From contig NZ_JAAIXZ010000009.1 of assembly GCF_010894435.1 (NCBI RefSeq), forward strand, positions 229,342-293,341: a stretch of DNA of 64,000 bases. Direction: 5' to 3'. The notes beneath the pieces were generated by a model. The model saw nothing but the letters and a program-made list of their open reading frames with translations. It made no database searches and was not told where the DNA came from. Below, piece after piece: positions 350-643 of this stretch. Positions within the stretch are counted from its first letter, which is position 1, and each line of letters opens with the position of its first letter. The stretch is from Pyxidicoccus trucidator (GTDB lineage: Bacteria > Myxococcota > Myxococcia > Myxococcales > Myxococcaceae). The position numbers and the translations under genes are program-made.

Positions 350-446
350 GTTCCCGGGTCGCCTTCAGTGCAGGTTCGAGTCCTGCCCCCGTCATCCCAA
401 CCTGCGACGGGGTAGCCCAACTGGTAGAGGCAAGCGACACCACGAG
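350..446 (+). ncRNA. tRNA-mimic RNA 1 (YrlA-like Y RNA, permuted tRNA order)
   Basis: Elements run in permuted order. T-stem GCAGG (370-374), T-loop TTCGAGT (375-381) and CCTGC (382-386) are followed by acceptor 3' strand CCCCGTC (387-393). After a 12-base loop come acceptor 5' strand GACGGGG (406-412), TA, and a D-arm GCCC-AACTGGTAG-AGGC (415-431). T-stem and acceptor pair perfectly (5 + 7 bp). An anticodon-stem equivalent GTCGC (358-362) pairs with GCGAC (434-438), and GG (356-357) can pair with CC (440-441) across a bulge. Position 33 is not U and the acceptor is closed by a loop, so this is not a working tRNA gene. The layout matches YrlA-type Y RNAs. The outer Ro-binding stem is weak here, so the ends are uncertain. 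Confidence 0.7.
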
Positions 447-501
447 ACCGCGAAGCACCCCAGCATCAGATTCTCACTCCAAGCTCAGCATTCGCTGTCG
501 C

Positions 502-643
502 AGGTCCGATCGACCGTTTCCGCCCGCCCCCTCGAGATGCTGGTGCAATTCCAGCCCGCCGCTCCATCCGCTTTGCGCGGCGGTCGTTCAATCGCAGGAC
601 GCGAGGTCTCAACCTGAGGCGGAGACTTCAAACGTGCGGACCT
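502..643 (+). ncRNA. tRNA-mimic RNA 2 (YrlA-like Y RNA, permuted tRNA order)
   Basis: This copy has a full long-stem architecture. The outer stem is AGGTCCG (502-508) with CGGACCT (637-643). The middle stem is GTTTCCGCC (516-524) with GGCGGAGAC (618-626), 9 bp with one G-U. The anticodon-stem equivalent is CCTCG (530-534) with CGAGG (602-606). Then come a T-arm GCTGG-TGCAATT-CCAGC (539-555), acceptor strand CCGCCGC (556-562), T and CCA (564-566), a 10-base loop, acceptor strand GCGGCGG (577-583) and a D-arm GTTC-AATCGCA-GGAC (586-600). The outer strand carries GGTCCGA, as in the Ro-binding stem of animal Y RNAs (from memory). Transcript direction is inferred from the polarity of the arms. Confidence 0.75.

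Follow-up and report, generated by a model that had tools for sequence, protein, structure and literature searches.

What are the two neighbouring tRNA-like elements that lie close to the start of the window, a 64,000-nt stretch of the Pyxidicoccus trucidator genome, and which protein do they partner? The initial annotation took them for a probable tandem pair of YrlA-type Y RNAs, a class bound by the Ro60 homologue Rsr. Our best reading is a YrlA-like double tRNA mimic that partners the product of the adjoining DUF7873 gene, probably as a decoy or scaffold for tRNA-binding enzymes.

Two permuted tRNA-like units form one structured locus

Each of the stretches 358-438 and 530-606 comprises a T-arm, an acceptor 3' strand, a short loop, an acceptor 5' strand and a D-arm, in the permuted tRNA order that had been described, and the T-stems and acceptor stems are perfectly paired within each unit. 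The earlier figure of a 10-12-base loop agrees with unit 1 (12 nt), the loop of unit 2 having 14 nt in the present parse; the CCA ascribed to unit 2 is found in the TCCA with which loop 563-576 begins. Beyond that description, we found anticodon-arm-like helices, basal stems, a hairpin at 662-694 and the DUF7873 gene. The features of the locus are as follows.

1-287, + strand: 3' end of the DUF7873 (PF25283) gene, 94 codons in the window (hmmscan E 1.4e-43, 149.8 bits)
310-480, + strand: domain 1 of the RNA, basal stem GGAGT/ACTCC (310-314/476-480) around unit 1
358-438, + strand: unit 1, permuted tRNA-like body (covariance model R2, Rfam YrlA, pair counts)
358-362/434-438, + strand: unit 1 anticodon-arm-like helix, five pairs
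370-386, + strand: unit 1 T-arm, GCAGG TTCGAGT CCTGC
387-393, + strand: unit 1 acceptor 3' strand, CCCCGTC
394-405, + strand: unit 1 permutation loop, 12 nt
406-412, + strand: unit 1 acceptor 5' strand, GACGGGG
415-431, + strand: unit 1 D-arm
494-656, + strand: domain 2 of the RNA, nested stems 494-499/651-656, 502-508/637-643 and 516-524/618-626 around unit 2
530-606, + strand: unit 2, permuted tRNA-like body (covariance model R1, pair counts)
530-534/602-606, + strand: unit 2 anticodon-arm-like helix, five pairs
539-555, + strand: unit 2 T-arm, GCTGG TGCAATT CCAGC
556-562, + strand: unit 2 acceptor 3' strand, CCGCCGC
563-576, + strand: unit 2 permutation loop, 14 nt, starting T-CCA
577-583, + strand: unit 2 acceptor 5' strand, GCGGCGG
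586-600, + strand: unit 2 D-arm
662-694, + strand: 13-bp hairpin 3' of domain 2, then ACCATTTT; conserved in the genus loci
818-2473: zinc carboxypeptidase (Peptidase_M14) gene, 3' of the RNA

Both units are closed by their anticodon-arm-like helices, which continue into the basal stems on which the units are seated; no anticodon loop is evident in either unit, the flanks forming long basal stems instead. The hairpin, together with the bases that follow it, is the probable transcript end of the candidate RNA. A scan of the RNA locus for a sigma-70-like promoter and a consensus terminator found neither, and ARAGORN predicted 0 ordinary tRNA or tmRNA genes in the window. Separately, unit 1 lies between tracts of CTCA/CTGA-like motifs (310-335 and 470-492) that repeat about every six bases; such tracts recur in nearly all of the related loci printed and are possibly repeated protein-binding sites.

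Covariance models built from the unit 2 cores (R1) and the unit 1 cores (R2) tell the two units apart. With the window sequence itself in the training set, unit 1 scored 77.3 bits with R2 (356-446) versus 38.6 with R1, and unit 2 scored 61.3 bits with R1 (525-617) versus 31.1 with R2. Because ordinary neighbouring tRNAs also score with these models, up to ~51 bits for R1 (locus L050), weak model matches were not counted as cassettes.

Conservation and covariation of the stems

A BLASTN search with 288-660 matched the window's genus throughout (27 of 27 genomes) and none of 34 other relatives, and the blocks conserved within the genus extend from ~310 through the hairpin. The paired stems, whose loss from related genomes would by the initial annotation have told against it, persisted in 27/27 genus genomes, with compensatory changes. 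Across the 27 aligned loci, 98.4% of the cells of the unit 2 domain held standard pairs and 13 of its 41 pairs had changed on both sides, a covariation equalled by 0 of 500 shuffles. Double changes were fewer in unit 1 (5 of 27 pairs), and its anticodon-arm-like stem was unpaired in four or five of the 27 loci at two of its five positions. The basal stem of domain 1, GGAGT/ACTCC, was paired in all 27 genus loci and gives no covariation signal because it never varies. Each of the 13 hairpin pairs was formed in at least 25 of the 27 loci, with A-T to G-C changes at pair 663/693 (16 and 11 loci).

Cross-phylum alignments combined the window locus (L001) with 37 of 41 selected sequences (A5) or with 46 of 57 (A6), selection being for permutation loops of up to 12 nt and sequences under 85% alike. 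The unit 2 core was 99.2% paired, with a covariation score of 0.735 versus 0.200 after shuffling (38 sequences). As the unit scan required both the T-stem and the acceptor stem, their pairing is partly circular; the D-stem, which was not a scan criterion, was 96.7% paired in the same core and showed double changes (38 sequences). The anticodon-arm-like helix, likewise outside the scan criteria, reached a score of at least 12 in 78% (unit 1) and 84% (unit 2) of the distinct loci, and in 32% and 40%, respectively, when strands were swapped between loci.

The units are linked to DUF7873 in bacteria and phages

The whole DUF7873 gene reaches ~445 nt upstream of the window; its match to the full-length HMM (386.6 bits, Pfam span G000:C9:228897-229622) exceeds the curated Pfam cut-off. 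Among 146 genomes of the phylum the gene was present in 26, comprising all 25 members of the window's genus in the sample and one genome of another family (G108).

Linkage was measured on loci picked by the DUF7873 protein only, with the units then sought within 650 nt downstream. The bacterial set held the best 80 of 489 relatives in the genome scan (Myxococcus, Hyalangium, Streptomyces, Kitasatospora, Rhodococcus, Ktedonobacter, Actinospica, an Acidobacteria and a Polyangiaceae metagenome bin) and the viral set the best 80 of 130; loci with less than 500 nt of sequence 3' of the gene (1 of 80 bacterial, 4 of 80 viral) are omitted from the counts. Of the 79 bacterial loci, 76 had at least one unit and 53 had two; for the 76 viral loci the figures were 65 and 40. 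Streptomyces dominates the bacterial set, and the loci are therefore not independent events. Upstream sequence of equal length contained units at 0/79 bacterial and 1/74 viral loci (1/153 in total), and dinucleotide shuffles of 155 loci gave 0/395 and 0/380 (0/775 in total). The order of the units was fixed, with a spacing of 143-194 nt (median 154) in the 93 two-unit loci.

The relatives retrieved through DUF7873 are Myxococcus and Pyxidicoccus, in agreement with the myxobacterial origin given earlier. In G108, two permuted units lie 3' of DUF7873 with stem sequences that differ from those of the window; both were matched by the R1/R2 models, unit 1 was confirmed by the unit scan, and unit 2 has the acceptor CGGGTCC/GGACCCG followed by GCCA.

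Of 50,697 phage records, 73 also contained DUF7873, which the entries listed call a 'hypothetical protein', and the phage hosts are as distant as Gordonia, Rhizobium, Vibrio and Pseudanabaena. Many phage copies of the cassette sit within tRNA arrays. In Gordonia phage Phendrix and Arthrobacter phage Mimi, DUF7873 stands in a tRNA array and is followed by an unannotated gap in which the R1/R2 models found both units; phages Ronaldo and Pam2 likewise carry both units in the gap 3' of DUF7873, and in phage RHph_TM30 one place in the corresponding unannotated gap was matched by both models. Vibrio phage D505, whose DUF7873 is ~31% identical, retains a weak unit 2 (R1 28.1 bits).

The DUF7873 protein

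The Myxococcus-type DUF7873 is 70-75% identical to proteins of Streptomyces, Acidobacteria and Ktedonobacter. Searches with it gave no match in NCBIfam or PADLOC and a single weak match in PHROG (E 0.11), a profile search up to E 10 returned DUF7873 alone, with no sequence relation to TROVE, and a literature search for 'DUF7873' found no paper using the name. No solved structure related by sequence was found. Two AlphaFold models (pLDDT 80.5 and 92.3) predict long helices and a beta sheet; no Foldseek match reached E 0.001 for either model in the PDB, or for the first model in BFVD. The best row of the VIA comparison was 3kdq_A (Z 9.3, rmsd 7.8, 147/152 residues), a Corynebacterium protein of unknown function, and this likeness between a predicted fold and a structure may serve as a lead, no known fold being assigned. 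A likeness of the first model to TolC (Z 7.2, rmsd 12.5) was not kept.

Relation to YrlA and Ro60

The structure of the bacterial Y RNA YrlA is PDB 6CU1, as given in passages of PMC8394870 and PMC11472068, the latter describing Y RNA as superposable on tRNA through circular permutation. According to parts of PMC8394870, tRNA enzymes modify the tRNA-like domain of YrlA, which also serves as the dock for PNPase, and the stem holds Rsr; a section of PMC7790460 suggests YrlA as a possible competitive inhibitor of an anticodon nuclease.

Both units have the YrlA order of T-arm, acceptor and D-arm within a closing helix. The covariance search proposed in the initial annotation did match unit 1 with Rfam YrlA (RF02553; 363-434, 25.3 bits, E 0.021), a score far under the gathering score of 69; unit 2 of the window was not listed, and none of 10 related loci contained a YrlA at the gathering score. 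Furthermore, DUF7873 and not rsr (TROVE) adjoins the RNA in the window. The YrlA assignment is partly supported: the topology and a Y-RNA-like basal stem agree with it and the tRNA mimicry has strong support, but the Rfam score and the neighbouring gene do not place the RNA in the Rsr-bound family.

Pfam TROVE matched nothing in the window's genome. A Ro60 profile (A7) made from nine diverse sequences among 13 candidate frames, four having been dropped as judged not to be the TROVE frame, detected one Ro60-like protein in this genome, a divergent one missed by Pfam TROVE at G000:C9:194630-196213, ~33 kb from the window (587 aa; L267:4480-6243, minus strand), for which hhalign gave a probability of 99.4 for a relation to Ro60. 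The absence of Ro60 from the genus, as suggested by Pfam TROVE and a single-protein search, was thereby overturned for 12 of the 27 genomes, that of the window included; the other 15 gave only weak matches in the vWA part. No permuted unit was found beside the Ro60-like gene of the window's genome. Separate YrlA-like RNAs do adjoin the Ro60 genes of L053 and L257. The L053 locus, from the same order, is a control for the classical arrangement, with its Ro60 gene at 172-1776 and a near-canonical YrlA directly 3' (1888-2015, 65.1 bits).

A second family of permuted units was observed in the Myxococcaceae, characterized by a GAGGCC-ATACACGC-like motif, often tandem ~170 nt apart and without DUF7873 (L049:571 and 9310; L054:6063; L270, L271, L272, L273, L274 and L275). 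In L049, L054, L273 and L274 it lies directly upstream of a ~600-aa protein, which has a vWA domain in L049 and L054 and a local match to the Ro60 profile in L049. Two units of this family lie not far from an array of 20 tRNA genes (L050:4660-7257) in the window's genome, on the same contig.

Alternative explanations

One alternative makes them ordinary YrlA Y RNAs partnered by a Ro60/Rsr protein whose gene lies elsewhere, with DUF7873 as an accessory; we regard this as possible, if somewhat unlikely. Ro60 could be the partner because many carriers have a Ro60-like gene: in a count confined to cassette carriers, 33 of the 46 bacterial loci covered (out of 80) had a TROVE protein, as did 9 of 28 viral cases (25 of 80 loci and three phage records), and in viral records L204 and L234 the TROVE gene is a near neighbour of the cassette. 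These figures, the YrlA topology and the divergent Ro60-like protein of the window's own genome speak for binding by Rsr, as initially proposed. However, 15 of the 27 genus genomes carry the RNA with no Ro60-like match, the Ro60-like gene of the window's genome, unlike those of L053 and L257, has no permuted RNA beside it, no TROVE was found in the Phendrix, D505 and Mimi records, and the Rfam gathering score is not reached. In named phages Ro60 matches fell in 350 and 88 records, overlapping with DUF7873 in Rhizobium phage RHph_Y65 only, among the entries listed.

That the units are functional circularly permuted tRNAs, whose acceptor loop is opened by RNase P and 3' processing to yield CCA and perhaps carry an amino acid, is very improbable. 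The bases after the acceptor 3' strand read N-CCA in 71 of 234 units and N-CTC in 75; no unit has C as its discriminator (0/234), only A, G or T, and the base differs between the units: 81 of 102 distinct unit 1 sequences have A, whereas T or G stands in 102 of the 106 distinct sequences of unit 2. Permutation-loop inserts of ~100 nt or more are tolerated (L144 unit 1 and L156 unit 2), which fits a loop that is dispensable or removed. Nevertheless, most units have no CCA and N-CT is commoner than N-CCA, the anticodon-arm-like helix leads into a long conserved basal stem and not an anticodon loop, and the acceptor sequence varies freely with no common charging identity seen. The truly permuted, charged tRNA raised at the outset is not supported, and the N-CCA and discriminator statistics are compatible with tRNA-like processing of the ends. 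A remnant of a decayed tRNA array, permuted by chance, might be imagined from the phage copies among ordinary tRNAs and from neighbouring tRNAs that score with the models; this has a negligible probability, being refuted by the perfect pairing within units, the compensatory changes across phyla, the fixed spacing, the lack of an ARAGORN tRNA in the window and the shuffles.

A candidate RNA partner for DUF7873

The structure, conservation, order and linkage of the units, all observed directly, frame the reading that we prefer. It is likely that 310 to ~700 is a single noncoding RNA gene, whose two YrlA-like domains follow a set order, forming with DUF7873 a cassette shared between bacteria and large phages and predicted to act as a decoy or scaffold for tRNA enzymes. 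Each domain would be a circularly permuted tRNA body whose open ends, at the place of the anticodon loop, run into the basal stem. We infer that DUF7873 binds this RNA; by analogy with Rsr and YrlA it would hold the basal stems, and the two mimics, which present no anticodon loop, might occupy enzymes that recognise tRNA by its elbow and acceptor. This engagement, and with it the decoy or scaffold role, is the less certain part. The particle could then be a decoy or docking scaffold in attack on, processing or quality control of tRNAs, carried by a cassette that would move between bacteria and large phages, and the tRNA-array setting in phages favours a tRNA-protecting or tRNA-replacing role. 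A bolder version, speculative and rather unlikely, is a phage-borne mobile ribonucleoprotein of a new kind, in which host tRNA processing enzymes would cut the acceptor loops of the double permuted mimic and the two open tRNA-like ends, side by side on the DUF7873 particle, would, in the course of infection, tie up or divert translation factors or nucleases that target tRNA.

Taken together, a highly conserved protein family of unknown function, present in several bacterial phyla and in phages, gains a candidate RNA partner. Permuted tRNA mimicry is set apart from Ro60, phage tRNA arrays gain a new component, and the role of the tRNA mimics of bacterial Y RNAs becomes testable in a small two-gene system.

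Comparison with known systems

In two-piece (permuted) tmRNA the acceptor strands occur in reversed order with a loop between them, as they do in both units; here, in contrast, the D-arms are intact, and ARAGORN counted 0 tmRNAs in the window. The permuted tRNAs of algae and archaea are restored by splicing and ligation. Their genes likewise place the 3' half before the 5' half with a spacer between the acceptor strands, whereas the flanks here form long basal stems with no evident anticodon loop; such genes are the subject of PMC3978253 and PMC3218864.

The closest likeness is to YrlA (RF02553), one domain of which, with its T-arm, acceptor and D-arm leading into a basal stem, corresponds approximately to one unit. 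The differences are that two distinct units occur here in fixed order within one conserved block, with long conserved linkers absent from the Rfam alignment, with DUF7873 and not rsr as the neighbour, and with an Rfam score under gathering. Literature on permuted tRNA, YrlA and Ro-like phage proteins, in which the YrlA work was covered in part, contained no description of the cassette. DUF7873 also differs from the protein of the Ro60/Rsr-YrlA-PNPase particle in having no detected sequence relation to TROVE, yet that particle, as portrayed in parts of PMC8394870 and PMC7790460, offers a possible analogy: a mimic of tRNA on which an RNA-processing enzyme docks, or which may competitively inhibit an anticodon nuclease. 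Since the pair of protein and RNA recurs in distant bacteria and many phages, the cassette appears to be a mobile and hitherto undescribed relative of bacterial Y RNAs.
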